64,000 nucleotides of DNA from Candidatus Euphemobacter frigidus (lineage in GTDB: Bacteria; Auribacterota; Erginobacteria; Erginobacterales; Erginobacteraceae). The notes under the pieces are model-generated. The model was not told the origin of the DNA, searched no databases, and saw nothing but the letters and a program-made list of their open reading frames with translations. Of this stretch, positions 1,298-22,368 are shown in pieces (position 1 is the first letter of the stretch; the number at the start of each line of letters is the position of its first letter). The stretch is taken from contig JAVCDH010000003.1 of assembly GCA_030765805.1 (NCBI GenBank), positions 1-64,000 on the forward strand, written 5' to 3'. The translations under genes were made by a program, and so were the position numbers.

Positions 1298-3043
1298 TTA
1301 ACTAACCCGGACCGCCTTTACCTTCTTTTTGCGTTCGACCGTGGCGGAGAGAACTTCCAGCATTTCCTTTAATTCGGTAATTTTCGCGCCGGCCTCCTGA
1401 TACTCTCCCCGAGAGAGACAAGTTTTAATTGACAGGATCCTCTTTTCGATCTCATCTTCATCGGCGTTTTCCAATGTGTCTTTTCCTTCCTCCAGCAACA
1501 CCCGGGCCGCCTGGATCATGCTTTCTGCCTGAATTCCAATTTGAATCTCTTCCTTGCGCTTCTGGTCTTCCCCGGCATGAATCCGGGCTTCCTCGATCAT
1601 CCTGTTGATCTCGTCGCCGGTCAGGCGCGGAGAAGAGTTGAACCGGATGCTTTTTTCGGTCTCAGTGTACAAATCCTGGGCCTTGACCTGGAATATCCCG
1701 TTGGCGTCGATCCGGAAAGTCACCTCGATTCGGGCCTCTCCCCTTGCCCCGAGGGGAATGTCGTTCAGCTCGAACTTCCCCAGGCTGATGTTGTCGGACA
1801 CCAGAAGCCTCTCTCCCTGCAAAACATGAATATCGACCTGGGTCTGGTTGTTTTTTGCGGTGGTGAATATCAGGCCGCGGGTAACGGGGATAGTGGTGTT
1901 TCGCTTGATAATCCCGGAGAAGAGGCTGCCTTCCGTCTCGATCCCCAGAGAGAGCGGGGTGACGTCGAGCAGAACCACATCCTTGATTTTCCCGGCCAGG
2001 ATACCGGCCTGGATTGCCGCCCCGAGAGCCACCACCTCGTCCGGGTTTAAGTCCTGGCAGGGCTCTTTTCCCAGGAGTTCCCGGGCCAGGCGTTGTACGG
2101 CCGGCATCCGGGTGGAGCCTCCGACCAAAACTACCCGGTTGATCAGGGGCGGCGCAAGGCCGGCGTCAGCCAGGGCCCGGTTGGTAGGTTCCACCATTTT
2201 TTTTAATAAATCTCCGGTCAGATCCTCGAATTGCCCCCGGCTCAAGGAAAATTCCAGGTCTTTGTTCTTCCAGATAAACGGAATCCTTATATCCACAGCC
2301 TCTGTTATCGAAAGGTCTTTTTTCGCCTTTTCCGAGGCCTCTTTCAGGCGTTGCAGTGCCGTCCGGTCTTTTCGTACGTCGACCCCGTAGCGTTTTTCGA
2401 ACCCCCGGGCCAGGTAATCCATTATTCTCCGGTCCCAGTCATCGCCGCCCAGTCGGGTGTCTCCCCCCACTGCTTTTACCTCGAAGACGCCGTTGCCCAA
2501 CTCCAGAACCGACACATCAAAGGTCCCTCCTCCCAGGTCCCAGATCAGTACATAGTGCACATCCTGTCTATGGAGGCCGTAAGCCAGTGAGGCCGACGTG
2601 GGCTCATTTATAATCCGGATTACCTCCAGGCCGGCCCGGGCCCCCGCCTCGATGGTGGCCTGGCGCTGGTTGTCATTGAAGTAGGCGGGAACGGTTACCA
2701 CGGCCTTTTCTATCTTCTCGCTAAAAAACTCTTCCGCGTCTTCCCTGATCTTGCGAAGGATGAAACCGGAAATTTCCGGGGGGCTGAATTTTTTCCCGTC
2801 AATTTCGACTCTGTAATCAGTCCCCATGCGACGCTTGATCGAAGCCACAGTCCGCTCCGGGTTAGCGACGGCCTGCGTCCTGGCCATGCTGCCGGTCAGC
2901 TGTCTCCCTTCGGAGGTGAAAGCCACCACCGAAGGAGTAAGTCTTCCCCCTTCCGCGTTGGGGATGATCTCGGGCCTCCCATTGTTCATAAACGCGGCCG
3001 CCGAGAAGGTAGTGCCCAGATCTATTCCGATTATTTTATTCAT
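1298..3043 (-). CDS. dnaK: Hsp70 chaperone (DnaK family) in the gas-vesicle locus
   Basis: A 581-residue Hsp70, an ATP-driven cytoplasmic chaperone that binds exposed hydrophobic segments. The nucleotide-binding domain shows the phosphate-1 motif GIDLGTTFSAAAF, the connect motif NEPTSASLAYGL, the phosphate-2 motif IWDLGGGTFDVSVL and the adenosine motif VLVGGSTRMP. The linker and substrate-binding domain follow (VVLLDVTPLSLGIETEG, then the beta-sandwich to about residue 480), then a helical lid. The protein is shorter than housekeeping DnaK (about 640) and ends in a basic tail without an acidic EEVD-like end. No grpE or complete dnaJ is adjacent. J-domain and zinc-finger modules occur separately in the same cluster (12839-13861; 7145-7537; 22015-22368), which suggests a dedicated Hsp70 for gas-vesicle assembly. 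Confidence 0.93.
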   Translation of the reverse strand: MNKIIGIDLGTTFSAAAFMNNGRPEIIPNAEGGRLTPSVVAFTSEGRQLTGSMARTQAVANPERTVASIKRRMGTDYRVEIDGKKFSPPEISGFILRKIREDAEEFFSEKIEKAVVTVPAYFNDNQRQATIEAGARAGLEVIRIINEPTSASLAYGLHRQDVHYVLIWDLGGGTFDVSVLELGNGVFEVKAVGGDTRLGGDDWDRRIMDYLARGFEKRYGVDVRKDRTALQRLKEASEKAKKDLSITEAVDIRIPFIWKNKDLEFSLSRGQFEDLTGDLLKKMVEPTNRALADAGLAPPLINRVVLVGGSTRMPAVQRLARELLGKEPCQDLNPDEVVALGAAIQAGILAGKIKDVVLLDVTPLSLGIETEGSLFSGIIKRNTTIPVTRGLIFTTAKNNQTQVDIHVLQGERLLVSDNISLGKFELNDIPLGARGEARIEVTFRIDANGIFQVKAQDLYTETEKSIRFNSSPRLTGDEINRMIEEARIHAGEDQKRKEEIQIGIQAESMIQAARVLLEEGKDTLENADEDEIEKRILSIKTCLSRGEYQEAGAKITELKEMLEVLSATVERKKKVKAVRVS

Positions 3044-3274: not shown

Positions 3275-4321
3275 AGTAGCTATCTTTATTCTTTGTTTTT
3301 TTCTATCTTTAACGGGGCTAACCCAGCCGCAGTTCCCGCATCCCTTTTCCAGGAGTTCCAGGAGATTGGCGGTTTTCCCGCACCGGGGACAAGTCTCGGT
3401 CCTTTCCCGGAACGATATAATCCGGCCCAGCGCCCTTTCCCATTCGTACATTTTCTCACCGGAGAAAGAGGCGATTTTCCTTTCGGGACTTGCCTCATAG
3501 ATAACATCAAACACCCTTTCCTTCTTCAAAGCCGGGCTCAAGTCCCTCACTTCCACCGTGGAACCCAGCACCCTTTCCATCGGAAGGTCAAAAGCCAGTC
3601 TTTTCTCAAAATCATACCACCAACACAATCTCCGGTTTGTTATATAGATACGACCCGGCTTCCATATCTTCTCCGGCGAAACCAGGTGCCAGGCCTTGCC
3701 CCGGTGGGTAACGGTTTCTCCTTCGCTTAAAAAATCTAAAACCTCCCCTTCATAGATGGGGAGGTCGATGTTTTCATCGACGAAAAACCCGGCTTCACCG
3801 GTCGCTTCTTTTACCGCGGTCTCTAATTTTTCTATCCCGGGCGATCTCAACCGCGCGATCCTCCCATCAGCAAGAACCAGGTAAAGCGCGCCATCCCGGA
3901 CCAGAAGACCCGTTATCTCGTTCAAGGGAGTCTGGAACATTACCTCGTTAAATTCCCGGTGTCGGATGAAGAGCCTTCTGTCGGTCAGATAAATTTGCCC
4001 GTACCTCCAGGCAACATAGATCCCTTCGGTGTGAAAAAAAGAGCCCGGTATTTCAAGCAGCACTTTTTCTCCCGGAAGTAAAAAAATTTCTTCCCGGGTT
4101 ATTTCACCCGCTGCCCGAGAGCGAAGCTTCTCGTCCCAGTCCTTCATCACCCCGTATTTAATCATGGTCTCCATGCCGGCGAGAGCCGCTCTTAAATTCA
4201 CGCCGATCAGCGGGATGCCGGCCACGGAGATGATGATGTCGGCACTTATCACCAGTCCCTTGTCCAGGATTCTGTCCAGGAGATCGACCAGCGTAATCCG
4301 GCTGTCTCGGGTAGGCTCCAT
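3272..4321 (-). CDS. GvpA/J-like domain fused to two GRAM/PH-like domains and a zinc ribbon
   Basis: A 349-residue chimera. Residues 1-57 are a GvpA/J-type gas-vesicle shell domain (LVDLLDRILDKGLVISADI, then ISVAGIPLIGVNLRAALAGM). Residues about 75-165 and 185-305 are two beta-rich repeats reminiscent of GRAM/PH folds: FLLPGEKVLLEIPG...GQIYLTDRRLFIRHREF and DFLSEGETVTHRGK...GRIYITNRRLCWWYDFEK. The shared (G)xIYxTxRRL motif is typical of GRAM-like sequences. Residues 311-332 are a zinc ribbon (CPRCGK...CGNCGW), nearly the same as the ribbon on the GvpJ-like protein at 6478-6828. GvpJ/S/M-type minor GvpA homologues are thought to nucleate vesicles. The extra domains could tether nucleation to a membrane or to another protein, which is inference. 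Its stop is followed by a terminator-like stem. Confidence 0.75.
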   Translation of the reverse strand: MEPTRDSRITLVDLLDRILDKGLVISADIIISVAGIPLIGVNLRAALAGMETMIKYGVMKDWDEKLRSRAAGEITREEIFLLPGEKVLLEIPGSFFHTEGIYVAWRYGQIYLTDRRLFIRHREFNEVMFQTPLNEITGLLVRDGALYLVLADGRIARLRSPGIEKLETAVKEATGEAGFFVDENIDLPIYEGEVLDFLSEGETVTHRGKAWHLVSPEKIWKPGRIYITNRRLCWWYDFEKRLAFDLPMERVLGSTVEVRDLSPALKKERVFDVIYEASPERKIASFSGEKMYEWERALGRIISFRERTETCPRCGKTANLLELLEKGCGNCGWVSPVKDRKKQRIKIAT

Positions 4322-4357: not shown

Positions 4358-5143
4358 TCAGGCAAATGAGTACGGAGGCCACGGCCCGGTAAAACGAATG
4401 TGCAATCCCTCTTCCCGGTTTATGCCTTCCAGGACATCGCCCAGTTTTTCGACCTTCTCCCCGGAAACCAGGCAGGACAGGTTCATGATCATCTGGAGTT
4501 GTTCGTTATCGCCTTTCTTGGTTTTATCTATGTGGATATCAAAAACTTCTTTTTTTATCCGCTGGTAAAAATCCTTGAAATATTCATCGGCCTTATTCTC
4601 CATCTCCCGCCGGAGCAGGTTCTTTACTTTCTGCTCGTACATATAGGCCACCCCCGGTGATTTTGATTTAACTTCTTCCTTTAAATTTCTGATCTCCGGT
4701 GAGTTTTCGGCGATTTTATCAACCATAATTCGTGGGTCCCACAGGATCTGAACTCCATACTCGGCCTTGCCTCTGACGTGACTGAATTTTTCTCTCAATT
4801 TCTCGTAATCTTCCTGCAGCCATTTTTTTAAGTTCTCCTCCGGCTCGATGCCCTCCCCGCCGACGATTAAGGTATCGAAGGACATCGGGAGCACTGTCCC
4901 GAACCTTTCCCAGGCGGTATCAACCACCTGCTGATGGATCATCACCCAGTTTTTGACTTTTTCCGCTTCCCCCGATTCATAAGGACGGGCCTCGCAGTCA
5001 TGAACAATGGCTGAGACCTCCCGGTGCGGGATGGAATAAACCCGGCCGCCCTCTATCCCGATAGGGCCCAGGTTTATCTTTTCGTTGCCGCCGGCGATAC
5101 AGTAGAGATACAGACTCCGGCCGACCGTGATCTCTTCACTCAT
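4358..5143 (-). CDS. gvpF: GvpF/GvpL family gas-vesicle accessory protein
   Basis: A GvpF/L protein of 261 residues, required in gas-vesicle systems for early assembly through contact with GvpA. It begins with the family signature LYLYCIAGG and a regulatory-loop segment (VYSIPHREVSAIVHDCE). The middle has WERFGTVLPMSFDTLIVGGE, and the end is GLHIRFTGPWPPYSFA, matching the usual (F/I)xGPxPPYxF C-terminus. I chose the ATG at 5143 because it overlaps the gvpK stop as ATGA. An upstream in-frame start at 5164 lies inside gvpK. It is one of four paralogues in the cluster. Confidence 0.93.
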   Translation of the reverse strand: MSEEITVGRSLYLYCIAGGNEKINLGPIGIEGGRVYSIPHREVSAIVHDCEARPYESGEAEKVKNWVMIHQQVVDTAWERFGTVLPMSFDTLIVGGEGIEPEENLKKWLQEDYEKLREKFSHVRGKAEYGVQILWDPRIMVDKIAENSPEIRNLKEEVKSKSPGVAYMYEQKVKNLLRREMENKADEYFKDFYQRIKKEVFDIHIDKTKKGDNEQLQMIMNLSCLVSGEKVEKLGDVLEGINREEGLHIRFTGPWPPYSFA

Positions 5144-5451
5144 TTTAACTCCCTGTTTGTCCACCGGGTGGGATTGGCAATCCTATCGACGCAATCATTA
5201 ACTATATCGTCCAATCCGTCCCTCACCGACTGAACCGCCTCCCCGACACCCTGCTCTTCTTTGATGTGATCGATCGCCAGGTCGAGTTCCCTGAGCGCCC
5301 GCCCCAGGCGTTCTGTCTCTTCCTCGTTCAAGCTCCCCCCTTCCATCCGTCTTACCGCCTGGAGTTGAAGCGCGTCCCTGATGATCTCGACCAGCGCGAT
5401 CACCAATCCCAGAACACCGCTTTTCAGATTGTCCTCTTCAATATTGATCAT
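5140..5451 (-). CDS. gvpK: Gas-vesicle protein GvpK
   Basis: A 103-residue GvpK homologue, a small helical protein essential for vesicle formation in the systems where it has been tested. The sequence NLKSGVLGLVIALVEIIRDA and the later RLGRALRELDLAIDHIKEE are characteristic, and length is typical. It starts 2 nt after the GvpH-type gene and overlaps the following gvpF by four bases, so all three are translationally linked. Confidence 0.93.
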   Translation of the reverse strand: MINIEEDNLKSGVLGLVIALVEIIRDALQLQAVRRMEGGSLNEEETERLGRALRELDLAIDHIKEEQGVGEAVQSVRDGLDDIVNDCVDRIANPTRWTNRELK

Positions 5452-5453
5452 GT

Positions 5454-6056
5454 TTAATCGGATTTCTTCTTTATCTGCAACTCAAGAATCCCGTTCTTAT
5501 ATGACTTCTCTAATTTGCCTTCCGGTTGAGAGGGGAGTTTCAGGTCCTGCCGGTATTTACGCCCGGGCTTATCCACGGATATAATGAGTCTGTTTTTGGC
5601 TAAATTGACCTTTATGTCCTTCTCTTCAACTCCGGGAATCTCGGCGATTACCCTGATGTGATCTTCCTCATCAAAGATATCTACCGGGCGCTCCTGTGGC
5701 TCCGGGGAGGGTGAAAGGGGGCGTTTCGATTTTTGTTTAACAAAAGGTTTCCCCCCGAAAGTTGCTTTCCGTGCCCCCGGAGGGCGCCCGGTTGGTCTCC
5801 CCGAAGGCCTTCCACCACTCCTCTCACCCCTCTCCACGTGCCCCTCTTTTATCCGGCGCTCGATCTCTTGATCAGCCTCCTTGAGCCGATCCCGGAAGGC
5901 AGGAGATTTCTCTAAACTCTCTAATAAACCACCAAGCCCGGGGATCACCTTGCCGATTCCTTTAAGAATTCCTCCAGCGACACCTTCTTCTTTGCCGGAT
6001 TCCTTCTCTTCGTCACTTTGCCCCTCAGGATCTCGCTTTTCACCTTCTTTATCCAT
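5454..6056 (-). CDS. gvpH: Hsp20-type gas-vesicle chaperone (GvpH-like)
   Basis: A protein of 200 residues with a highly charged, low-complexity N-terminal half (Glu/Lys-rich, then Gly/Arg/Pro-rich RPSGRPTGRPPGA) and a C-terminal alpha-crystallin domain (VDIFDEEDHIRVIAEIPGVE ... NRLIISVDKPG ... NGILELQIKKK). Haloarchaeal GvpH has the same fold and keeps GvpA from aggregating. The ATG at 6056 is preferred over one at 6089 because GGAAGGAG lies at the right distance upstream. It sits directly before gvpK and gvpF. A second Hsp20 occurs at 31165-31710. Confidence 0.85.
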   Translation of the reverse strand: MDKEGEKRDPEGQSDEEKESGKEEGVAGGILKGIGKVIPGLGGLLESLEKSPAFRDRLKEADQEIERRIKEGHVERGERSGGRPSGRPTGRPPGARKATFGGKPFVKQKSKRPLSPSPEPQERPVDIFDEEDHIRVIAEIPGVEEKDIKVNLAKNRLIISVDKPGRKYRQDLKLPSQPEGKLEKSYKNGILELQIKKKSD

Positions 6057-6165
6057 CTTTCTTCTCCTTCCTTTTCCGGTTTTGGGCACTTTTAATTATT
6101 GCACTCCAAAGTTCTTCTGATACTGGATCAGCAGGCATGTTATACTCACATCAGTCTGATTGCTT

Positions 6166-6477: not shown

Positions 6478-6828
6478 TTACTCCGCCTTTATCCCCTTGA
6501 CTTTGGCGGATATCCAGCCGCACCAGGGGCAGCCTTCGCCCAGAAGTTCATCGGTTTGGACTTTTTTCCCGCACTGGGGACACTCTTCCTTGCCCTTTAA
6601 CGCCTCTTGCCAGGCGGCGGTCTCGACATTGGTCCCGGAGGGGAACTCCAGGCCGTACCGGGCCGCGGTCTCAAAAGAAGCCAGGGCGGCCCTTATCTTG
6701 ATCCCCAGGAGTTCCACCCCGGCCACGGAGATGGAGATATCTGCGTTTATCACCAGGCCCTTGTCAAGAACACGGTCTATGACGTCTACCAATGTGGCGC
6801 CTGTATCCCTGGTTGCTTCTATGGACAT
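6478..6828 (-). CDS. GvpJ/GvpA-like minor shell protein with C-terminal zinc ribbon
   Basis: A 116-residue protein. Residues 1-62 are a GvpA-family domain (GATLVDVIDRVLDKGLVINA, then ISVAGVELLGIKIRAALAS), closer to GvpJ/S minor homologues than to the major shell protein because it is longer and has no alanine-rich tail. Residues about 83-107 form a zinc ribbon (CPQCGK...CPWCGW) that matches the ribbon ending the protein at 3272-4321. In other systems GvpJ-type proteins help initiate bicone growth. The ribbon may dock a shared partner, which is inference. AGAGG precedes the ATG at a plausible distance. Confidence 0.82.
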   Translation of the reverse strand: MSIEATRDTGATLVDVIDRVLDKGLVINADISISVAGVELLGIKIRAALASFETAARYGLEFPSGTNVETAAWQEALKGKEECPQCGKKVQTDELLGEGCPWCGWISAKVKGIKAE

Positions 6829-7144: not shown

Positions 7145-7537
7145 CTACTTGGGTACAACCCCCTGGCCTTTACATTTCGGACAGGGCACGGGATGAGGAC
7201 GTCGCGGGTACACGCCGGTCCCATCGCAGTTGGCGCATTTTTTCGAAGGCTCGATCCCGGTGACCATTCCCGCTCCGCCGCAGGCCGGGCAGGTTAAACG
7301 GCTGGTGGTGTACGGGTCTATTCCTTTGCCCGCGCAAAAATTGCATTTAACCGCCGGCCCGCTGATCTTCAACTTGCCTTTTCCCAGGCAGACCTGACAA
7401 TCGGAGAGTTTGGATAAAAGCTGAAAAGGGTCCTTCCCCTTACCCCGGCAAAAGGCGCATTCAATTTCCACCCGGTTCTTTTCCCACTTCTTTATTTCTT
7501 CCGGGCTTACGGTGGTCCATCTTGGTTTTCGCGTCAT
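7145..7537 (-). CDS. DnaJ-type CxxCxGxG zinc-finger protein without J domain
   Basis: A 130-residue protein with six cysteine knots of the DnaJ central-domain type: CAFCRGKG, CQVCLGKG, CNFCAGKG, CPACGGAG, CANCDGTG and CPKCKGQG. DnaJ has four. No J domain or C-terminal substrate domain is present. In DnaJ this region binds two zinc ions and helps hand substrate to Hsp70. Comparable six-knot proteins lie at 22015-22368 and in 19088-19867. The first and third knots are spaced alike in all three, so they are local duplicates. It starts 2 nt before the GvpG-like gene stop, giving tight coupling. It is a candidate partner of the locus Hsp70 and of the GvpF-J fusion. Confidence 0.8.
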   Translation of the reverse strand: MTRKPRWTTVSPEEIKKWEKNRVEIECAFCRGKGKDPFQLLSKLSDCQVCLGKGKLKISGPAVKCNFCAGKGIDPYTTSRLTCPACGGAGMVTGIEPSKKCANCDGTGVYPRRPHPVPCPKCKGQGVVPK

Positions 7538-8156: not shown

Positions 8157-10115
8157 TTAGCCATATATCTTCCCGGCTAACTTCTTCAGGCGTCCCGGGC
8201 CCTTGACCTGATAGGGGAGAAGAGGGACCCGGCTGATTTCGTATTTACGGGTTCTCTCCCGGTTTATTTCCCGGATGACCGCGGTCTGTTCTTTTCTCCT
8301 GGATTCGCAGAAATTGCATCCGGTGGCCGGGAGGACCATGTTGATTATAATCCGGCGGCACGGTATCTCGAGCCGGTTGAAGCTCTCGAGCAGGTCGTCC
8401 ATCTCATCTTTGCCCATAACTTCCGGGATCGAGATGACCACGAACCGGCAGCGGGCCGGGTCCATTAGAATCTCCTGCAGCTTTCTCACCTTCCGGGAGA
8501 GCTCAATCATCTCCTCCGCCACCCGAGACAATCTCACCACCTCTTTATACTTGATCAGCAATTTAAAGATCGTGTTCAGCCACTCCCGGGCCACCCGCGG
8601 CATCTCCAGGAAACGCAGCATGTGACCGGTAGCCGCATTATCCAGAACGTATAAGTCGAATTTACCTTCATCAATAAAATCCACCACCCGGGTCAAGGCC
8701 ATTATCTCGTCCAACCCCGGAGGAGTGAGGGATATAAGTCCCTCGAAAACTTCCCGGTCAAACTTAATATCCACGCCCTGATTAAAAAAACCGGTGAACG
8801 CTTCATTTATTTCTTTCCGGTAGGTCTTTTTATAATCCTCAAACAGCTTTGGCGCGTCCATCTCCAGGCCATAGAGATTATCGGTCTCTCCCAGCCGGGT
8901 TATGCTGTCCCCGACCGGCAGGCCGAAGCTGTCGGAGAGAGAGTGAGCGGGGTCGGTGGAGAAGATCAGAACCTTCCGGGAGGGATATCTCGCGGCGATG
9001 GTAAGGGCGGTAGCCGAAGCTATGGATGTTTTCCCCACGCCGCCTTTCCCGCCGAATACATATAATAAAATATCATCCTCGATTAAATCGGAAGGACTGC
9101 GCTTGAAACCGTTAACACCGGCGAGCCGGGACTTGAAATTAAATAATTTCTTCCCCGCCGGCAGGTAAGGGGTTTTTCCCTCGAACAGAACTTCGGCATA
9201 CTCCTTTAGACGCTCCAATCCCCGGATTTGATAGGGGAAGGCGGGGACCCGGAAAAGTTCGTAGTCAGCGAATTTTCGATCGATACGGTTTAACTCTTTC
9301 TTCTGTTCCTTTTCTTCCCGGGAACAGAAAGGACATTGATTTCGGCTGCTATTAATTTTATTTATAATAATAGACTTCACCGGAATCCCGTACCCCTTCA
9401 ATGATCTCAGCAGCCTTTCCGTTTCTTCAATAGCCAGCGAGTGGGGGATGGTGACCGGTATGAACTCCGTTAAATCGCGGTTTTTCAATAAACCCCTCAC
9501 CCGTTTAACATCTTTTGCCATCATTTCCAAAAATTCATCGGTGTCGTCCTTTCGATACCGGCCGGTAAAATGCCGGGCTAAAAACCGGTGCTTGGCCTGC
9601 ATCAGATTAAGAACCTTGATCCATTTTTTCATCTGGGCCGGGAGACCTAAAAGCCGGATGGCATGCCCGGTCGGAGCCGTGTCCAGAATAACCAGGTCAA
9701 ATTCTTCCTCCTTCAATATGTTCGCTATTTTTATTACCGCCATGACCTCGTCCAGTCCCGGGATGGAAAGAGAAAAAAAGTTCTCAATATCCCGCCGGTC
9801 GAAGTAGGTCCCCCGCTCGGCAATCTTTTTCAGGACGGAGCCGTATTTTTTCTTAAAATCTATGGCGTCTTCTTCCGCCTCAATCTCCAGGGCGCTGAGG
9901 TTATCGACGTCTCCTATCCGGGTGATGGTATTGCCGACGGCGCGCTCGAAACTGTCGCCAACGGAATGGGCGGGATCGCAGGATACAATCAGTATCTTTT
10001 TACCGGGATGGGCCCGGGCTAAATAAAGCCCGGCCGCGCAGGCAGAAGTGGTCTTCCCGCATCCTCCCTTCCCGCCAAAGATTATCAGGGACCGATCTTC
10101 GATATTCCGAAACAT
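8157..10115 (-). CDS. Tandem ArsA/Get3-family ATPase
   Basis: A 652-residue protein built of two homologous ArsA/Get3 halves. The first P-loop is GGKGGCGKTT (residues 14-23) and the second GGKGGVGKTS (about 355-364). Both halves carry the DPAHS switch I (STDPAHS, SCDPAHS), a DTAPTGH or DNAATGH switch II, and a CxxC pair (CPFC near 261, CNFC near 610) like the zinc-binding pair of Get3. Get3 targets tail-anchored membrane proteins and shields hydrophobic helices, while ArsA drives arsenite export. No arsenic genes are present, and the gene sits between gvpO and the GvpG-like gene. I infer shielding or delivery of hydrophobic gas-vesicle subunits. Confidence 0.85.
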   Translation of the reverse strand: MFRNIEDRSLIIFGGKGGCGKTTSACAAGLYLARAHPGKKILIVSCDPAHSVGDSFERAVGNTITRIGDVDNLSALEIEAEEDAIDFKKKYGSVLKKIAERGTYFDRRDIENFFSLSIPGLDEVMAVIKIANILKEEEFDLVILDTAPTGHAIRLLGLPAQMKKWIKVLNLMQAKHRFLARHFTGRYRKDDTDEFLEMMAKDVKRVRGLLKNRDLTEFIPVTIPHSLAIEETERLLRSLKGYGIPVKSIIINKINSSRNQCPFCSREEKEQKKELNRIDRKFADYELFRVPAFPYQIRGLERLKEYAEVLFEGKTPYLPAGKKLFNFKSRLAGVNGFKRSPSDLIEDDILLYVFGGKGGVGKTSIASATALTIAARYPSRKVLIFSTDPAHSLSDSFGLPVGDSITRLGETDNLYGLEMDAPKLFEDYKKTYRKEINEAFTGFFNQGVDIKFDREVFEGLISLTPPGLDEIMALTRVVDFIDEGKFDLYVLDNAATGHMLRFLEMPRVAREWLNTIFKLLIKYKEVVRLSRVAEEMIELSRKVRKLQEILMDPARCRFVVISIPEVMGKDEMDDLLESFNRLEIPCRRIIINMVLPATGCNFCESRRKEQTAVIREINRERTRKYEISRVPLLPYQVKGPGRLKKLAGKIYG

Positions 10116-10771: not shown

Positions 10772-11074
10772 TCACTTGCGGCCTTCTTCGTATTTCCGGA
10801 TGGCCTCCAGTCTTTCCAGGAGCCCGGTCTCTTCCCGGTTGTACTCTTCCTCCTCTATCTCCCCCATCTCGAAGCGCATCTGAAGGTTCAGCAATTCCTC
10901 ATGCACTTTGGATTTATCGGTTATCTCGGTATCGGCCATATCTTTTAATTTATTGCCGATCCAGACCACCCCTTTTACCGGAATCAAAAAGGGAAACACA
11001 ATGTCAAGCAATCCAAATCCGGGGCCCGGACTTTCCTGACTTTCCCGGGGCCTATCAGGGTATGATTTTTTCAT
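10772..11074 (-). CDS. gvpG: Gas-vesicle protein GvpG
   Basis: A 100-residue GvpG. After a short polar leader it has the family core: GLLDIVFPFLIPVKGVVWIG, then NKLKDMADTEITDKSKVHEE and a C-terminal helix LQMRFEMGEIEEEEYNREE. GvpG is a small helical accessory protein that interacts with GvpF/L. Its ATG abuts the stop of the gvpF homologue at 11075, consistent with translational coupling. Confidence 0.9.
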   Translation of the reverse strand: MKKSYPDRPRESQESPGPGFGLLDIVFPFLIPVKGVVWIGNKLKDMADTEITDKSKVHEELLNLQMRFEMGEIEEEEYNREETGLLERLEAIRKYEEGRK

Positions 11075-11854
11075 TCATTCCTCATCAAGGGTTATTACTA
11101 ATTCCACAAAATTAATCGGCGGGACCGGTCCGATATACTTGAATTTTGTTCGCCCATTATATTCCGTTGCCAGTTTATCCATCAATCCGTCGAACTCTCC
11201 CGCCCGGGTTTTATCCACCAGGAAGGCCAGGTTGGTTATCATGGCATCGCCGAAGACCTTGTTGCCGCGCCATTCAACGCTGGTTCGCTTAAAAATGCCC
11301 AGTATGTTTTTCTCTTCCTTCGCTTTCTTCCGTTCCAGCGCTTCTTTTACCAGCTCTCCCAGTGTTGCCCTCTGCGGGATCGATTGAACTGACTGGTGTG
11401 AAATCAACTTCTGCCGCAGTCTCCTGATCTCGGTATTTTCATCCACAATCTCCCGGAAGATCGACTCCATGTCGGTCCAGATGGCCTTGAGGCCCAATTC
11501 CATCTTGTTGTCCATCTTGAGCGATAAATCTTTCAGCTCTTCATATCTTGTTTTAAGCACTTCCTCTCTTATTCTGTCATCGGGAGCAACATTCTCTTTG
11601 CCGCCGGCGATTGTGCCGAACCTGACCGGCAAGACGGTAAAATCATCCATCAACTCTTCCAGGACCTTCTGGTGAGCCATGGTGTTGGCCCGGGAGATGG
11701 GGTACTTGATGATCGGGGAGACGCTGATTACCGCCGCTATATCCCGATGAGAAATACTGTAAACATCGTCTCCCCGCTCGCCGATCGCCGGCGAGTCAAA
11801 CTTCCTCTCTTCCCTGTCCCCGATTATGCAGTAAATGTATCTCCCTTCTTCCAT
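11075..11854 (-). CDS. gvpF: GvpF/GvpL family gas-vesicle protein
   Basis: A 259-residue GvpF/L homologue beginning EEGRYIYCIIGD, with VYSISHRDIAAVISVSPIIK, the active-fold segment LEELMDDFTVLPVRFGTIAG and the C-terminal KFKYIGPVPPINFVELVI. I chose the ATG at 11854 because family members start just before the (Y/L)YC signature. An earlier ATG at 11908 would overlap the previous gene. It is most similar to the neighbour at 11890-12651, so the two are probably tandem duplicates. Confidence 0.92.
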   Translation of the reverse strand: MEEGRYIYCIIGDREERKFDSPAIGERGDDVYSISHRDIAAVISVSPIIKYPISRANTMAHQKVLEELMDDFTVLPVRFGTIAGGKENVAPDDRIREEVLKTRYEELKDLSLKMDNKMELGLKAIWTDMESIFREIVDENTEIRRLRQKLISHQSVQSIPQRATLGELVKEALERKKAKEEKNILGIFKRTSVEWRGNKVFGDAMITNLAFLVDKTRAGEFDGLMDKLATEYNGRTKFKYIGPVPPINFVELVITLDEE

Positions 11855-11889
11855 CTCTCGCCTTGCGGGTTGCCAATTCACTCTTCCGG

Positions 11890-12651
11890 TTATTGTTCCT
11901 GCCCCCATTTTATAACCAGTTCCGCGAAATTGAACGGGGCCACCGGGCCGACATACTTGAACTTCAGCCTGTCCTCATATTTTCGGCTTAATTCTTCTAC
12001 CAGGTCGTCAAATTCAATCTCGTGGGCCTTGTCCACCAGGAAGGCGCAGTTCAGTACCATGTTTTCACCCGCGATCTTGTTAACGCGAAGGTCAACGCAA
12101 CGGGGTCGCAACGCGTCTAAAATCTCTTCCGCCTCGGCTTCTCTTTTCTGCTCCAGGGCCTGCTTGACCTCCTTCCCCAGGTTCACCTTCTCATTCACAG
12201 CTGGAGGAGAGGACTTTCCGGCCATTTTCTTCTTCAGGCTTGTTATCCGGGGATCGGTCTCCCCGATCTCCCGGAAAATACCGCTCAGGTCAAGCCAGAA
12301 GACCTTCAGCCCCAGTTCCACTTTATTGTCCATGTCTCTCAATAAGTTTTTTAATTCATGGTACCGCTTCATCAGGAGGCTCCTGATCTCTTCCGCGCCG
12401 GCGGCGATAGTGCAGAACCGGAAGGGAAGGACATCGTATTCCTTCATTACCTCTTCCAGCACCTTTTCCTGGGCGATCAGGTTGTCCCGGCTGATCACGT
12501 ATTTGGTCATCGGGGTCGGGCTGATCACGCAGGCCAGATCACGGAAGCAGAGGGTATGCACCTCGTCCCCCCGGCCGCCGATCCCGATCGGCCCGAAATT
12601 CCTCTCATTGGATTCGTTGATCACGCAGTAAAGATATTTTCCCTCATCCAT
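11890..12651 (-). CDS. gvpF: GvpF/GvpL family gas-vesicle protein
   Basis: A 253-residue homologue with MDEGKYLYCVINESNE at the start, the central EVMKEYDVLPFRFCTIAAGA and the end FKYVGPVAPFNFAELVIKW. It shares the order of elements and close wording with the following gene (11075-11854). Paralogous GvpF/L proteins in other systems bind GvpA or GvpG at different steps, so the two copies may not be redundant. It is preceded by a 187-nt gap containing a dispersed palindrome. Confidence 0.92.
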   Translation of the reverse strand: MDEGKYLYCVINESNERNFGPIGIGGRGDEVHTLCFRDLACVISPTPMTKYVISRDNLIAQEKVLEEVMKEYDVLPFRFCTIAAGAEEIRSLLMKRYHELKNLLRDMDNKVELGLKVFWLDLSGIFREIGETDPRITSLKKKMAGKSSPPAVNEKVNLGKEVKQALEQKREAEAEEILDALRPRCVDLRVNKIAGENMVLNCAFLVDKAHEIEFDDLVEELSRKYEDRLKFKYVGPVAPFNFAELVIKWGQEQ

Positions 12652-12838: not shown

Positions 12839-13861
12839 TCAGGGCCGGACAATCTCAACGACAACAAGATCTTTTTGGTCCCCCGGGCCGAAAATTATCT
12901 CCTCCCCCCCACAGCAACTCGTCAGCAGCTTGTAAGCATCGGTTATCTCTTCAAATTTTTTCTCCAGGTGCGGATTATCCGGGTCCCGGTCCGGGTGTTC
13001 TTTTTGAGCTATCTCCCGGTAAGCCTCCTTGACGGCTTCCGCCGTGACATTATTCCCCAGCCTTAACAACTTCCCGGCTTCGTCCAGCCGCTCATACCCG
13101 ATTTTATTTAACCGGCAGGTGGCAAAGCTGTAAGGGGGGAGGGGACCCACGCACCGGAAGTTCACTTCTTGCTCGTACTCTTCGTCCAGTTCCTTTAAGG
13201 AGGCGTCGAAATCCGGTTCCTTGATCTTCTCCAGCAGAAAGGCGCAATTGACGATCATCTTGTCGTCCATCACCGGGTGTTTCTGGAAATCCACCGCGGA
13301 TTTCTTGAGAAAGTCAACGATCCGCTCCTCCTCTTTTGTCCTTCGTCTCTCCAGCGCTTCCTTGATCATTATCCCTATCTTTATCCGGTCCTGGAAACCC
13401 TGGGCGGGGGGCCCGGAGGCAATCAGCGTCTTGAATTCTTTTATTTCCCGGTCCTCTTCGCCGATCCGCCTGATGACGCCGTTCAGATCCACCCGGGTGA
13501 CCGCCACGTCCAGTTCTATCCTGCCCTCCATGGAAGCAAGCAGTTCTTCGAACCGCTGAAAGCCTTTTTTTAAAACTTCCCTCACCCCCTCGTCTCCGGA
13601 AACAGTCGTCCCGAACTTCATGGGGATGACGATTTGTTCGCTCATAATCTTCTCGATGGTCTGCTGGTGTCTTACCAGCAGGCGCCCCAGGGCTTCCTTC
13701 AGCATGGTATCGGGACTGGGGATTTGGGATTCGCTCACCACGCCGGCGATACCCCGGTAGGGAATTGTATAAACCTCCTCATCGGAAATAATCCCGCCGG
13801 GGCCGAAAGATTTTTTTTCGGCGCCTTTTATTATCCCGTAAAGGTATCTTTCTTTATCCAT
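12839..13861 (-). CDS. GvpF/GvpL protein fused to a C-terminal J domain
   Basis: A 340-residue fusion. Residues 1-250 are a complete GvpF/L protein (ERYLYGIIKGAEKK ... VIPMKFGTTVSGDEG ... FRCVGPLPPYSFATCRL). Residues about 258-312 are a DnaJ-type J domain: helix II VKEAYREIAQKE, the catalytic HPD tripeptide in KEHPDRDPDNP, and helix III LEKKFEEITDAYKLL. HPD is the residue set that stimulates Hsp70 ATPase. A Cys-Cys-Gly-Gly turn and a short beta tail end the protein. This would recruit the locus-encoded Hsp70 (1298-3043) directly to GvpF-bound GvpA, which is inference. The gene follows the Cdc48-like ATPase by 13 nt. Confidence 0.88.
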   Translation of the reverse strand: MDKERYLYGIIKGAEKKSFGPGGIISDEEVYTIPYRGIAGVVSESQIPSPDTMLKEALGRLLVRHQQTIEKIMSEQIVIPMKFGTTVSGDEGVREVLKKGFQRFEELLASMEGRIELDVAVTRVDLNGVIRRIGEEDREIKEFKTLIASGPPAQGFQDRIKIGIMIKEALERRRTKEEERIVDFLKKSAVDFQKHPVMDDKMIVNCAFLLEKIKEPDFDASLKELDEEYEQEVNFRCVGPLPPYSFATCRLNKIGYERLDEAGKLLRLGNNVTAEAVKEAYREIAQKEHPDRDPDNPHLEKKFEEITDAYKLLTSCCGGEEIIFGPGDQKDLVVVEIVRP

Positions 13862-13874
13862 CTGCCACCCTTTC

Positions 13875-16028
13875 TCATAATTCCGGGATCCGTGTCTTCG
13901 CTTCCAGGATCGCCTCTTCGAAGTGTTTTCGCTTGATTGTGAATGTTTTGATTGATTTTTCGTCGGGCTGGCCTTTCACTTTCGTCAAAAATTCCCTTAT
14001 GGCCATCATGGAAGCCCTCTTGACGACGGCCGCGATGTCCGCCCCGGTATATCGATCGGTTTTCCCGGCCAGCGCCGCGAGATCAACGCCCTTAGCCAGC
14101 GGCTTGCCCTCCATGTGGATTTTAAATATCTCCAGGCGGGCGGCCCGATCCGGGACGGGAAATTCTAAAATCAGATCAAACCGGCCCGGTCGGAGTATCG
14201 CCGGGTCCAGCATGTCGGCCCGGTTGGTCGCGCCGATGACAACCACGCCCTTCAGCTCTTCTATGCCGTCCATTTCAGTGAGGAACTGGCTGATGACCCG
14301 CTCAGCGGTGTGGGCGGCATCCCCGCCTCCCCGGATCGGGATCAGGGCGTCGATCTCGTCAAAGAAGATGATGGTAGGGGCGGCCTGTTTGGCCTTTTTG
14401 AAGACCTCTCTTATCCCCCGCTCGCTTTCCCCTACGTATTTGCTCATCAGGGCCGGCCCTTTAACCGAGATAAAATTGACTTCGCTTTCGTTGGCCACCG
14501 CCTTGGCTACCAGGGTCTTGCCGGTTCCGGGAGTGCCGCGGAGCAGGATGCCCTTCGGGGGGGTAGTTTTTGATCGGGCAAAAAGTTCCGGGTATTTCAG
14601 CGGCCATTCTATGGTTTCCATGAGCCGGCTCTTTATATCTTCCAGACCCCCCACATCGTCCCATCCGACATCAGGCACCTCGATAAACACCTCCCGGATA
14701 GCCGAGGGCTCGATCTCCTTCAGCGCCTCCATGAAGTTATCCATGGTCACCTGGAGCTCCAGGAGGATCTCATAGGGTATCTCTGCCAGCTCGAAATCCA
14801 CCCGGGGGAATATCTTCCTCAAGGCCGACATGGCCGCCTCCCGGGCCAGGGCTTCCAGATCCGCCCCCACGAAACCGTGAGTGATCGCCGCCAGTTTCTC
14901 CAGGTCGACGTCCTCGGCCAGGGGCATGCCCCGGGTGTGAATCTGGATTATCTCGTACCTGCCGTTCTTGTCGGGGATGGGTATCGACAGCTCCCGGTCA
15001 AACCGGCCCGGCCTTCGCAGGGCCGGGTCCACCGTGTTGGGAATATTTGTGGCGCCGATCACGACGATCTGGCCCCGGGACTGCAACCCGTCCATCAGGG
15101 CCAGGAGCTGGGCCACCACCCGGCGCTCCACCTGCTTTTCCGCCCCCATCTCTTCCCTTTTGGGAGCGATCGACTCTATCTCGTCGAGGAATATAATGGC
15201 GGGAGCGTTGGCCTGGGCGTCGTTAAATATGCTTCGCAAGCGGCCCTCGCTCTCTCCGTAATATTTTCCCATGATCTCCGGCCCGCTGATGCTGGTGAAG
15301 TAGGCGTCGGTCTCGTTGGCCACCGCCCGGGCGATCAGGGTCTTGCCGCAGCCGGGGGGGCCGTGGAGGAAAATTCCTTTCGGAGCTTCGATCCCCAGCC
15401 GCTCGAAGACCTGGGGATACTTGAGGGGAAGCTCGATCAGCTCCCGGACCCGGTGGATCTGCTTGTCCAGACCGCCGATGTCCTCATAAGAGATCCGGAG
15501 GCCGCCCTTTCTTTCCGGAGACTCCTTCCCCTCCATTTTGATAGCCGTGGTGGACTGGATGAGAACCACTTCTTTTTTTGGAACCGTGTCCACCACCTTG
15601 AAGTCGCAGGATCGGGTTCCGAAGAGGTTGGCCCGGACCCGGTCCCCGGCCAGCAGGGGGAGTCCTTCCAGAAGCCGGCCGATGTACCGGGTGTCCCTTT
15701 CTCCCCGCAATCCGCTGATGGTAATGGGCGACAGGGTGATCTTTTCGGCGCCCCGGGAGGTGGTTTTTTCCACGGAGGCTTTTTCATCCAGGCCGACCTG
15801 GGCGTTCTCCCGGATGATCCCGTCGATCTGGACAATCCCCTTGTCCCGGTCCTCCCGGTAGGCGGGCATTATCTTGGCGGCGGTTTGACGCTTACCCTCG
15901 ATCCGGACGACATCACCGATCTCGCAGCCCAGTTTTTCGAGATCCGCGGGGTCGACCCGGGCTATGCCCCTTCCCACGTCGCGCGGCCTCGCCTCGGCCA
16001 CTTTCAATGTCAATTTGTCATTCGCCAT
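13875..16028 (-). CDS. Cdc48/VCP-like double AAA+ ATPase
   Basis: About 717 residues with the full Cdc48 layout: an N domain ([20 protein letters not shown], a double-psi-barrel start), a D1 AAA module with Walker A GPPGCGKT, Walker B IIFLDE and Arg finger RRPGRFDRE, and a D2 module with Walker A GTPGTGKT, Walker B IIFFDE and RPGRFDLI. D2 has the pore motif KYVGESE. Cdc48 homologues extract and unfold proteins. They are universal in archaea and sporadic in bacteria. The ATG at 16028 is preferred over an in-frame GTG at 16052. The gene lies in the gvp operon between the winged-helix gene and the GvpF-J fusion, so a role in remodelling vesicle subunits is inferred. Confidence 0.92.
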
Positions 16029-16062
16029 AATTTTTTTCTCTCTATTATCCACGCTCTGTTTC

Positions 16063-17047: not shown

Positions 17048-17977
17048 TTAGTTATAACAGATCTCATCAATCAATCTGGTTATCTTTCCCCTGAAATCCG
17101 ATCTCCGGGATACGTCCAGCGAGTCCATCTCCGAATCCAGGATATCCAGACAGATCTTCGTGAAGCCCTCATCGGAAGAGGTTGGGCTTAGGTCGGCCAT
17201 GTTCATCACCTTGCCGATCATAATGGCGGCGCGGACTGTGGGTATGGCTCCGTTATTGTCGTGGTTTCTCAGCCCCCGGACAAGGTCCACGACCATCCCG
17301 GCTTCCGGAGGCGATATCCCGGTCTTGGCGGCGGTTATGGCTATCTCGGTATCCCGGTCGTAATGGCCCAGCTTTATGGTGATCAGCCGGTCCCAGAGGG
17401 CATCCTGCGCCCGGTGCACACCGGCGTACTCATGGGGATTGCTGGTAAAGATAGCCCGGAAATCGGGATGCACCTTTAAATATCCCTCCGTTCCCCGGGC
17501 CGCGGGAAGGTCGAGCATCTTTTCTTCCAGGACGGAGAGGAGGACATTATTGGCCTCGGCCCGGGAGCGGGTAAATTCATCATAGATAAGAGTGAAGCCG
17601 TGCTTGCAGGCCACGGTGAGTCGATTGTCCACCCACTTGCCGCTCACGTCTTCTTCGGCCTTGAGGACCGAGTGGATGAAATTGTCCACCAGCTTTCTCT
17701 TCCGATAACCAAACTCCGATCCGACCAGGTCGGAAGTGCCGAACTGTTCGTCCCCGTGAATCAGGATGGTCGGCTGACCCGCCTGGGCCGCCAGGTACAT
17801 GGCCAGCGTGGTCTTGCCGGTCCCGGCGGGGCCGGAGAGGTTGATCGGATAACCCACATCCAGGTACAAAAAAGCCCGCTTTAATATATCTTCTATCTGG
17901 GGCGTCATTACAAAAGCGGGCTGCTCCCTGGCCAGCATGATGGGCTGAACCTCGGCGATGGTATCGATCTCATTCAT
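17048..17977 (-). CDS. gvpN: Gas-vesicle AAA+ ATPase GvpN, copy 2
   Basis: A 309-residue MoxR-type AAA+ protein of the GvpN family. Walker A is GPAGTGKTTLAMYLA (about residue 50). The family-specific IHGDEQFGTSDLVG follows, then Walker B FTLIYDEFTRSRAEAN and the sensor FTSNPHEYAGVHRAQDALWD. GvpN is thought to drive vesicle enlargement together with GvpC. The other copy at 20869-21786 is clearly homologous throughout but not identical. It overlaps the gene at 17970-19091 by 8 nt. Confidence 0.94.
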   Translation of the reverse strand: MNEIDTIAEVQPIMLAREQPAFVMTPQIEDILKRAFLYLDVGYPINLSGPAGTGKTTLAMYLAAQAGQPTILIHGDEQFGTSDLVGSEFGYRKRKLVDNFIHSVLKAEEDVSGKWVDNRLTVACKHGFTLIYDEFTRSRAEANNVLLSVLEEKMLDLPAARGTEGYLKVHPDFRAIFTSNPHEYAGVHRAQDALWDRLITIKLGHYDRDTEIAITAAKTGISPPEAGMVVDLVRGLRNHDNNGAIPTVRAAIMIGKVMNMADLSPTSSDEGFTKICLDILDSEMDSLDVSRRSDFRGKITRLIDEICYN

Positions 17978-19091
17978 TTTTCTTCTCCTCAGGGTTGTAT
18001 TCTAATTTCCCCTCTCTCCAGTTGAACTTTATCTCCTCGGTTACAACCGGGGGTTCCCCCCCGCGGTTTAAGTTTCGTTTCTTCATCTCCTCCCAGCTCT
18101 CGATAACGGCCAGCCAACCGGTCCCGGTGCGCTCCAGGTTGATCAGACGGCCTATATCCGAGAGTTGACTCTCCAGGAACTGCTCGGCTTTTTCCTCGTC
18201 GCCGGCGTTAAAAGGCACGCTGTTCAGGGATTCCCGGAGGGGCCGCGTCAAGAGCCGCTCTTTAAGATTCTCCAGCATCGTTTCATCTGTTATCTGATCA
18301 CAGGAAGATACAGCCAGTTCATCGTCAATTGCCACCCGGCAGATAACCGGGATATCATCCCCTGAAATTCTCCTTCGTTTCTTCTCTTCCCAGGGTTCCA
18401 TCCATATAAGACACCCGTTCTCCCGCCACTCGATATCGAATACCTGCCCCGCGTTTTCCAGCGACTCTTTCAGGAGACCGGCCAATTTTTCCGTGTCTGG
18501 CGTACTTTTAGCCACTTCCCTTAATCTCGCGCCGAAATCGTCCAGGGCCTCTCCCAGTCTCTGCCTCAGCCTCTCCCTCCGCTGTCTCAGTTCTTCCTTC
18601 CTTATCTTCTCCGCCTCCCTCTTCTTCTCCCACGAGGTCGCTTCCCGTTCTAAATCACCGGCCCGGTCCCGGTTGCCCGGAGGCGGCTTCCCCAGGGCCC
18701 GGGCCCACTCCCGGGCGATCAGTTTCTTCCTGATCGAGACTACCGTGGCCGTGTTGAGCGGTATCTCCTTCTTCTTTTTTTTGTCTTTGTTGTCTTCCTC
18801 CTTCCAGGGATTATATTGAACCCAGGCCGCTTCATCGGGTTCGCCGGCCAGCTTTCGCTTGTCGTGTTCAATTATCGTTTTCGCCACGGCATCCCGAAAA
18901 GGAAGCCCCCCGGAAGAATCCTTTTTCAGCAGCTCCTTTCGTTGCAGCCTCCCGTCCCTTTCCATCTGCTTTTTCCAGGCCAGGGCCGCCTCTTCGAGAG
19001 GGGAGATGACCGCGACCTTCTTCCGTAGAATCCGGGCCTTTTCCCGGGACATTTCCTTTATCGCTTGAACTCTCGCGTTTATCACTTTCAT
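17970..19091 (-). CDS. Protein with coiled-coil front and two GvpO-like segments
   Basis: This 373-residue protein is not a recognised named family. Residues 1-120 are basic and helical (SREKARILRKKVAV). About 155-185 is a strongly charged coiled coil (EKIRKEELRQRRERLRQR). The C-terminal half has two repeats: NAGQVFDIEWRENGCLIWME-PWEEKKRRR and INLERTGTGWLAVIE-SWEEMKKRN, each preceded by a helical LKESLENA or FLESQLSDIG. The W-x-x-x-E-x-x-E core and following beta strand recall GvpO (GWVVALEMVEKHS). I infer a tandem-GvpO-related protein. It overlaps the upstream zinc-finger gene by ATGA and gvpN by 8 nt. Confidence 0.6.
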   Translation of the reverse strand: MKVINARVQAIKEMSREKARILRKKVAVISPLEEAALAWKKQMERDGRLQRKELLKKDSSGGLPFRDAVAKTIIEHDKRKLAGEPDEAAWVQYNPWKEEDNKDKKKKKEIPLNTATVVSIRKKLIAREWARALGKPPPGNRDRAGDLEREATSWEKKREAEKIRKEELRQRRERLRQRLGEALDDFGARLREVAKSTPDTEKLAGLLKESLENAGQVFDIEWRENGCLIWMEPWEEKKRRRISGDDIPVICRVAIDDELAVSSCDQITDETMLENLKERLLTRPLRESLNSVPFNAGDEEKAEQFLESQLSDIGRLINLERTGTGWLAVIESWEEMKKRNLNRGGEPPVVTEEIKFNWREGKLEYNPEEKKNE

Positions 19092-19867
19092 AATTTTCTG
19101 TCAGGTGGATTCCCGGCATGAGAAGCAAGGATGTAGTAGCGGCCTTCTCTCAAGAGAAGGCCCTTTCTGACCAGGGAGTCGCAGAGCTGCTCGGCGTAAG
19201 TTGAGGAGATCGGGGGCGATGCGTGCCTGCTCACGGCCACCCGGTCCGCCCGGCCCAGTTCCTTGACCACTTCCAGGACGTCCCGCTCGCTTCCCGAGGC
19301 CGTGCCGACCGGCCTTTCCCGCTCGACTTTAGCGGACAGGAAACTCTCCCCGCCTCCGCTCCACGGATTTCTGTCCGATGCTTTTAAATCATGGGATCTG
19401 GTCTCTTCTCTTACCGTGACAACACCTTTCCCCCGGCAGGTCCCGCAGACAAGCTTGTTGGTCGGCTCCTTGCCCGTTCCCCGGCATTTGGGGCATATCT
19501 CCACCGGCGCCTCCACGTGGTGAACTCCTTTGCCTTTACAGGCATTACAGGTCACATTGCTCCGGGGTTTTTCTTCACCCCTCCCCCGGCAGAAGGCGCA
19601 GGTGACGACGGGCGGGTCCACGATGAGGGTGCCCGTGCCCCGACAGACCGGGCACTTTGTGCCCCGGGGCCTTTCCCCCTGTCCCCGGCAGAATCCGCAG
19701 GGGTACTCCTCGTCCTCAAAGAGGGCGCCGGCCTGATGGCCACCGTAGGATTTCCCGGGACCTAGGGTGACCGGCTGCCAGGCCCATTCATCCTGCAGTT
19801 TTTTAATCCCGGTTTTCCCGGTCTTCAGCTTTGTTTTAAAACTTGCCTTGTCCCATTCCCAGCTCAT
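19088..19867 (-). CDS. DnaJ-type zinc-finger protein fused to a winged-helix-like domain
   Basis: A 259-residue protein. Residues about 40-150 hold six knots: CGFCRGQG, CPVCRGTG, CAFCRGRG, CNACKGKG, CPKCRGTG and CGTCRGKG. A polar linker follows. Residues about 190-250 resemble the small winged-helix family of this cluster (DVLEVVKELGRADRVAVSR, TYAEQLCDSLVRKGLLLREG). The ATG at 19867 has GGGGG just upstream and is preferred to the one at 19879. It links two families that are otherwise separate proteins here, which suggests that they work together. Its stop overlaps the next start as ATGA. Confidence 0.78.
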   Translation of the reverse strand: MSWEWDKASFKTKLKTGKTGIKKLQDEWAWQPVTLGPGKSYGGHQAGALFEDEEYPCGFCRGQGERPRGTKCPVCRGTGTLIVDPPVVTCAFCRGRGEEKPRSNVTCNACKGKGVHHVEAPVEICPKCRGTGKEPTNKLVCGTCRGKGVVTVREETRSHDLKASDRNPWSGGGESFLSAKVERERPVGTASGSERDVLEVVKELGRADRVAVSRHASPPISSTYAEQLCDSLVRKGLLLREGRYYILASHAGNPPDRKL

Positions 19868-19917
19868 CTTTACCCCCATTTACATGGTGCAAAATAGTGA
19901 ACAAATCCCTGATTACT

Positions 19918-20868: not shown

Positions 20869-21786
20869 TCAGCAGTATTGATCGAGCAGCTTGTTGATGA
20901 TCTCTCTGACCTTCTGCTGGTGGGAGCGGGAACCGACCCGGCTGGTCTCGGAAGTCAATATCTCCAGGGCCGTCTCCCGGAAGACCGGATTGTCCCTGGA
21001 GACGACCGCTCCCCGCACTTTCAGGGTCTTGCCGATCATGATCGGTCCCCGGATGGTGGGGGCGTACTCGCACTTGCCCGACTCCCGCAGGCCCCGCACC
21101 ACGTTAATCAACTTTTCCGCGTCCGGAGGAGAAAGATCGGTTTTCGCTACCGTGATGGCCACCTCGGTTTCCCCGTCATAGTGATCAAGGTCGATGGTGA
21201 TCATCCGGTCTCGCAGGGCATCCTGGCTCCGATAGACACCGGCGTACTCTTCGGGATTGGAGGTGAAGATGGCCGTGAAATTGGGATCGACCTTGAGGTA
21301 GCTCTCATTGCCTTCCCGGGCGGCGGGAAGATCGAGCATCTTTTCCTGAAGGACGGAGAGCAGAGTGTTGTTGGCCTCGGGGCGGGAACGGGTGAACTCG
21401 TCGTAGATCAGGGTGAACCCGTACTTGCAGGCCACGGTCAGGCGGTTGTCCACCCAGCGCCTCTGCATGTCTTCTTCGGTTTTCAGGACCGAGTGGATGA
21501 AATTGTCGATGACCTTCTTTACGCGGTACCCGTATTCTCCCCCCACCAGGTCGGAGGAGGAGAACTCCTCGTCCCCGTGGATCAGCATCACCGGCCGGCC
21601 GATCTTCGAGGCGATATGCATGGCCAGCGTGGTCTTCCCGGTGCCGGAAACTCCCCTGAAGTGGACGGGAAACCCGGCGGCGATATAGGCCAGCGATCTC
21701 TCGGTGACTCCTATGACCTGGGGGGTTTCAACGAAATTAGGCAGGGCCCGCGGCTCTAATACAGTGGTTAACTCTTCTACCGGCAT
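20869..21786 (-). CDS. gvpN: Gas-vesicle AAA+ ATPase GvpN, copy 1
   Basis: A 305-residue GvpN with Walker A GVSGTGKTTLAMHIA, IHGDEEFSSSDLVGGEYGY, Walker B FTLIYDEFTRSRPEANN and sensor FTSNPEEYAGVYRSQDALRD. Compared with the copy at 17048-17977 the ATPase core is strongly conserved, while the N- and C-termini differ. It is the copy nearer gvpA and the GvpC-like genes and is preceded by GGAGGTG before the ATG. GvpN and GvpC together build full-size cylinders in other systems. Confidence 0.94.
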   Translation of the reverse strand: MPVEELTTVLEPRALPNFVETPQVIGVTERSLAYIAAGFPVHFRGVSGTGKTTLAMHIASKIGRPVMLIHGDEEFSSSDLVGGEYGYRVKKVIDNFIHSVLKTEEDMQRRWVDNRLTVACKYGFTLIYDEFTRSRPEANNTLLSVLQEKMLDLPAAREGNESYLKVDPNFTAIFTSNPEEYAGVYRSQDALRDRMITIDLDHYDGETEVAITVAKTDLSPPDAEKLINVVRGLRESGKCEYAPTIRGPIMIGKTLKVRGAVVSRDNPVFRETALEILTSETSRVGSRSHQQKVREIINKLLDQYC

Positions 21787-22014: not shown

Positions 22015-22368
22015 CTATACGACTCCTTTGCCCCCGCAATTCAGACAGGGAAGACTGTCGGGGGCCTGCCCGGTGCCTTTGCATACGGGACAGACTTTGG
22101 TTTTCTCCGGTACAGTGTTCACACCCTTACCCCCGCACACGGTGCAGGTGAGCCTCCGATCGGGGTAAATGCCGGTCCCATTACAGAAGGCGCATTCCGC
22201 GGTGGGGAGGATGACACTCACTTTCCCGGTTCCCCCACAGACCTGGCAGACGGACAACGGAGAGAGGAGACCAAAGGGGTCAATCCCTTCCCCGTCGCAG
22301 AAGGCGCATTTTATGGTCTTGCTGGAAACCTTTATTTCTTTGCCTGCTTTTACTTTTTTCTTGGCCAT
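22015..22368 (-). CDS. DnaJ-type CxxCxGxG zinc-finger protein without J domain
   Basis: A 117-residue protein with six knots: CAFCDGEG, CQVCGGTG, CAFCNGTG, CTVCGGKG, CPVCKGTG and CLNCGGKG, preceded by a Lys-rich leader. It is a close paralogue of the protein at 7145-7537, including the DPFGLLS/DPFQLLS spacer between knots one and two. It has no J or substrate domain. Located between the GvpC-like gene and gvpN, it could act with Hsp70 on early shell components. Confidence 0.82.
   Translation of the reverse strand: MAKKKVKAGKEIKVSSKTIKCAFCDGEGIDPFGLLSPLSVCQVCGGTGKVSVILPTAECAFCNGTGIYPDRRLTCTVCGGKGVNTVPEKTKVCPVCKGTGQAPDSLPCLNCGGKGVV

Follow-up and report, generated by a model that had tools for sequence, protein, structure and literature searches.

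A gas vesicle protein GvpF fused to a C-terminal J domain in Candidatus Euphemobacter frigidus and other bacteria

How the very hydrophobic shell protein of gas vesicles avoids aggregation before assembly is an open question. Known GvpF proteins bind GvpA, and GvpF has been proposed as its chaperone (PMC11445434; PMC9501494), a role that is so far only a proposal. In the DNA analyzed here (64,000 nt from Candidatus Euphemobacter frigidus, referred to as the window), a gvp cluster with genes for GvpA, GvpN, GvpG, GvpK, GvpO and other GvpF proteins also encodes a GvpF that continues into a J domain (GvpF-J, table 1). This locus raises the question of whether such a fusion is real, and whether it could bring Hsp70 to the shell protein.

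Table 1. Coordinates of GvpF-J, its parts and its cluster neighbors in the window (aa numbers are those of GvpF-J).
Feature	Position	Strand	Remarks
GvpF-J fusion gene	12839..13861	-	340 aa, single open ATG-start ORF; full-length profile match
GvpL/GvpF domain, aa 5-247	13121..13849	-	Pfam PF06386, 193.9 bits; Foldseek 6l5d_B, 4qsg
J domain, aa 256-317	12911..13096	-	Pfam PF00226, aa 265-314; AlphaFold helices; 5nro_B match
HPD motif, aa 289-291	12989..12997	-	Invariant in 21/21 fusions
C-terminal tail, aa 318-340	12842..12910	-	Low-confidence beta strand 331-338 (AlphaFold)
Cdc48/p97-type AAA ATPase	13875..16052	-	Immediate upstream neighbor of GvpF-J; TIGR01243, 929.9 bits
GvpF paralogue without J domain	11890..12651	-	Pfam, 214.5 bits
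GvpF paralogue without J domain	11075..11908	-	Pfam, 182.6 bits
GvpG	10772..11074	-	Pfam, 85.8 bits
Cluster-encoded Hsp70	1298..3043	-	581 aa; candidate partner
Stand-alone DnaJ-type CxxCxGxG zinc-finger protein	7145..7537	-	Pfam PF00684, 46 bits
Second CxxCxGxG zinc-finger protein	19088..19879	-	Pfam PF00684, 47.7 bits
Third CxxCxGxG zinc-finger protein	22015..22368	-	Pfam PF00684, 44.5 bits
Hsp20 family protein	5454..6089	-	Pfam PF00011, 25.2 bits
Double GET3/ArsA-type ATPase	8157..10115	-	TIGR00345, 460.7 bits, two stretches
GvpA-family shell protein	6478..6828	-	Pfam PF00741, 63 bits; probable client
GvpN AAA ATPase	20869..21786	-	TIGR02640 (GvpN equivalog model), 330.8 bits, over cutoff

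The first-pass annotation of this gene had described a full GvpF/L sequence ending in GPLPPYSF and continuing into a J domain with HPD, and this description was confirmed, as both domains pass their Pfam cutoffs within the single ORF. The GvpL_GvpF match (E=6e-57, cutoff 23.6 bits) covers profile positions 2-244 of 245 and the domain is complete, being closed by GPLPPYSF at aa 239-246. The DnaJ match reaches 46.2 bits (E=5e-12) against a cutoff of 27.8, and HPD lies within KEHPDRDPDN (aa 287-296). Coding on the opposite (+) strand of the same interval was ruled out by stops throughout.

In the AlphaFold model (mean pLDDT 83; 77-87 over aa 261-310), the top Foldseek matches were GvpF crystal structures (6l5d_B, E=2.5e-14, TM 0.86 by target length; 4qsg, E=1.1e-12), followed by many solved J domains with a probability of 1.00. 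Structure prediction also recovered the J fold that had been assigned to residues 258-312, with helices I (256-265), II (274-288) and III (297-317), the HPD loop between II and III, and a superposition of 1.1 A over 53 residues on the DnaK-bound J domain of DnaJ (5nro_B). No helix IV was recognizable in the model, where residues 318-334 have a pLDDT below 50; a fourth helix is usual in J proteins, though not defining for all of them. The tail holds a low-confidence predicted strand (331-338), and a comparable ...ILVKVR... strand closes many relatives.

In all, 21 distinct fusions were collected, and all 17 that were scanned with Pfam, including that of the window, lie above both cutoffs, so the window's gene is not a one-off. 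They span at least five phylum-level groups, namely the window's phylum, those of genomes G081 and G129 (counted as separate phyla because the phylum searches did not overlap), Chlorobiaceae/Bacteroidia, and Pseudomonadota, and the remaining genomes may add more. Every one of the five gas vesicle genomes detected in the window's phylum carried the fusion, as did two genomes from other phyla; with a neutral Pfam profile it was detected in seven of eight GvpF-bearing genomes, five of the seven belonging to one phylum. A survey of 384 genomes gave GvpF matches in 25, which extended through the J domain in 18 and lacked it in 7, a prevalence that is biased upwards since the profile was built on fusions. 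Further fusions beyond the survey were found on a Chlorobiaceae contig (L002), as a second fusion in Bacteroidia, and on a plasmid of the cultured Octadecabacter arcticus 238 (WP_015497776.1; L143 14842-15924). The L002 fusion and that of a Bacteroidia MAG contig (L001) were counted once because the contigs are nearly identical, probably owing to bin contamination; the bin of L001 holds a second, different fusion. A search of phage records returned no relative. A Spartinivicinus plasmid match reached aa 313, but it extends past the annotated GvpF, which has only 759 bp, into GvpG and was rejected as a fusion. The O. arcticus plasmid cluster, which is flanked by transposases and has GvpF-J without Cdc48, GET3 or Hsp70, offers a small natural version for experimental use.

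That the architecture stems from a frameshift, a chimeric assembly or a J domain in decay has a negligible probability. The window's gene bears no sign of this, and although a stop interrupts the gene in one relative (G307), fusions in 21 places share the junction directly after GPLPPYSF together with an invariant HPD. A chance J-like match is likewise ruled out by conservation and fold.

Hsp70-Hsp40 function requires HPD, and D35 of DnaJ contacts R167 of DnaK (PMC5519331). None of the 21 fusions lacks HPD, and within the J module (aa 250-318) H289, P290 and D291 are the only strictly invariant columns, while the median pairwise identity among fusions is 32% (19 sequences). A decayed or purely structural module is therefore unlikely. 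A262 and A309 vary once each; as regards a basic surface on helix II, K278 is kept in 19 fusions. Taking Y25, K26, R27 and F47 of DnaJ as the equivalents of positions in the fusion, F303 (F47) is F in 20 of 21 and M in one, Y281 (Y25) is kept in 18, position 282 (K26) is R or K in 13 and Q or H in several, and the R27 equivalent is E in the window's protein. The last two substitutions suggest that affinity for Hsp70 may be low. On the whole, the sequence comparison supports the view that this J domain has retained what is required for action on Hsp70.

With respect to the Hsp70 partner, it had been claimed that a gene for it lies 10 kb away in the same cluster, and an Hsp70 is indeed encoded there, 9.8 kb from GvpF-J on the same strand. 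A direct physical link between the two was also claimed, and of this claim the fusion and its J residues stand, whereas the specific pairing is weakly supported. Only 2 of 19 GvpF-J clusters, those of the window and of genome G130, contain an Hsp70 gene, and that of O. arcticus has none; GvpF-J hence does not generally depend on a dedicated cluster Hsp70. The window's genome has two Hsp70s, the housekeeping DnaK (contig 74) and the cluster Hsp70, in which the NBD insert and the long C-terminal tail present in DnaK are both missing. The two proteins keep all J-docking residues examined, R167, N170, T173, E206, E217, V218 and D393 (with E. coli DnaK as the alignment reference), and for this reason the sequence cannot tell which Hsp70 is used.

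In a tree of 19 Hsp70s, the cluster Hsp70s of the window and of G130 (L094 7059-8981), two distant genomes, were sisters on long branches apart from the housekeeping DnaKs (SH-aLRT 99), so that a few species may have a dedicated partner. The idea that the fusion works specifically with an Hsp70 dedicated to gas vesicles and encoded in its own cluster, as the first-pass annotation had it, draws on this clade and on its location in two gvp clusters, but is unlikely in view of the 17 clusters without such a gene and of docking residues that are the same as in DnaK. Nearly all GvpF-J genomes have an Hsp70 gene at another location. For G217 (MAG, 91% complete) the Hsp70 search gave weak matches and no full-length Hsp70, probably reflecting a gap in the MAG.

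The genes around GvpF-J recur in the order Cdc48, GvpF-J, GvpF, GvpF, GvpG. Cdc48 was found in 17 of 19 GvpF-J clusters, usually adjacent to the fusion, versus two of seven J-negative clusters, and Hsp20 in 18 of 19 versus two of seven (Fisher p 0.006 and 0.002, values that take related clusters as independent). CxxCxGxG zinc-finger proteins were present in 7 of 19 GvpF-J clusters and in none of the seven others, a difference that is not significant, and ArsA/GET3 genes in 12 of 19. The three zinc-finger proteins of the window and the J domain on GvpF may possibly represent a DnaJ split over several proteins, with the zinc fingers acting in trans.

Some other features of the window's cluster were observed. 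It encodes two GvpN-like ATPases on the minus strand (17048-17977 and that in table 1, which the equivalog scan covered). Besides the GvpA-family protein at 6478-6828 there is a longer one at 3272-4321 on the same strand; both have C-terminal CxxC...CxxC zinc-ribbon-like tails, to which the longer protein adds a GRAM-like domain (Pfam GRAM, 25.5 bits). G260 has a comparable long form, and G130 and G217 gave close GvpA matches.

The most likely role of GvpF-J is that of a client-dedicated, class C-like J-domain co-chaperone, in which the GvpF part would bind a hydrophobic shell protein, either GvpA or a minor shell protein resembling it; GvpA binding is transferred here from other, known GvpFs. 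The C-terminal J domain would use helix II and HPD for docking on Hsp70 in its ATP-bound state and would trigger ATP hydrolysis, loading Hsp70 onto the bound shell protein. The latter would thereby be kept in solution and ready for assembly until it passes to GvpG, GvpN or the growing shell, or misassembled subunits could be extracted together with the neighboring Cdc48. Most species would rely on the housekeeping DnaK as the partner; in the window's genome it could be DnaK or the cluster Hsp70. Recruitment of Hsp70 to GvpF-bound shell protein is considered probable, with assembly favored over quality control. The occurrence of GvpF-J in many unrelated bacteria suggests that Hsp70 handles the shell protein while vesicles are being assembled. 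The fusion is not universally needed, since the seven gas vesicle genomes of the survey with J-less GvpF matches lack it and, to our knowledge, the well-studied gas vesicle model systems manage without it.

Alternatively, the J domain could serve quality control instead of assembly, GvpF-J tagging aggregated or collapsed shell protein for unfolding and recycling by Hsp70 and Cdc48, which would suit the adjacency of Cdc48 in most clusters and the almost constant presence of Hsp20. However, GvpF-J occurs without Cdc48 on the short contig of G274, in G307, where the region is cut and the gene broken, and in the complete cluster of O. arcticus, and Cdc48 occurs in two J-negative clusters; as each is found without the other, the two are separable, and a role in quality control in place of assembly is improbable. 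The J fold could also, without acting on Hsp70, serve as a scaffold or a docking site for a different partner, for instance Cdc48 or another Gvp protein. The adjacency of Cdc48, the scarcity of cluster Hsp70 genes, the changed R27 equivalent and the sometimes changed K26 equivalent could all be read in this way, but it would leave unexplained why H, P and D are the sole strictly invariant residues of the J module in 21 divergent sequences, and Hsp70 is available elsewhere in nearly all GvpF-J genomes, which makes a scaffold very unlikely. Beyond Hsp70 recruitment by GvpF-J, a self-contained, ATP-driven shell assembly line can be envisaged only tentatively. It would comprise a split DnaJ, Hsp20, a GET3-like targeting ATPase, Cdc48 and, in certain species, a dedicated Hsp70, and the hydrophobic shell protein would be handed along to GvpN and the growing vesicle, analogous to the delivery of tail-anchored proteins.

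The origin of the fusion was addressed with a tree of 86 GvpF/L domains, in which a single branch separated the 17 fusions that were complete enough from all other domains (SH-aLRT 89, short of the 95 mark). The fusion trait required one change on this tree versus 15.8 in shuffles, and the fusions were placed with GvpF (SH-aLRT 99), away from GvpL-like paralogues such as 4358-5164. These phylogenetic data fit a gene fusion that happened once and then either spread horizontally or was inherited from an ancient ancestor. Over its entire length the J module can be aligned with small J proteins of about 105-127 aa that stand alone in these genomes, for example on contig 8 of the window's own genome (G000) and contig 189 of G001, which are alignable over aa 255-330. 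They share with the fusion an IDEARKILGL-type first helix, HPD and a YCxxYRYSF-like tail, but have no GvpF attached. They are the likely donor family, although canonical DnaJ scores about as well over the J core alone.

A full-text literature search, with most subscription papers and preprints outside its reach, returned no description of a GvpF-J fusion, in agreement with the first reading of this DNA. The genome paper of O. arcticus names its gvp genes with no mention of DnaJ (PMC3646047). The architecture is probably contained, unremarked, in domain databases. Standard annotation hides it: the NCBI label of the O. arcticus protein is merely 'GvpL/GvpF family'. With an invariant HPD and a broad bacterial range that includes a cultured gas-vacuolate species, the role of Hsp70 is directly testable by point mutations, and GvpF-J may aid heterologous production of gas vesicles, for which misassembly poses a practical difficulty.

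Compared with the crystallized GvpF/GvpL proteins of Microcystis (4qsg) and Anabaena (6l5d), GvpF-J has the full two-domain GvpF fold and GPLPPYSF, and its gene lies beside GvpG in a gvp cluster as for those accessory proteins; the solved GvpFs stop at the GvpF domain, whereas GvpF-J has about 90 extra residues forming the J domain. It shares HPD and the F47 and Y25 equivalents with E. coli DnaJ, and the docking residues of E. coli DnaK recur in both Hsp70s of the genome, but the G/F region, zinc finger and C-terminal domains of DnaJ are absent, zinc fingers being encoded separately in the cluster. Class C J-domain proteins are similar in combining an HPD-containing J domain with a dedicated client module, without a G/F region or the client-binding domain of DnaJ. 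GvpF-J differs from them in its C-terminal J domain, in an unrecognizable helix IV, and in having a gas vesicle assembly factor as the putative client module.
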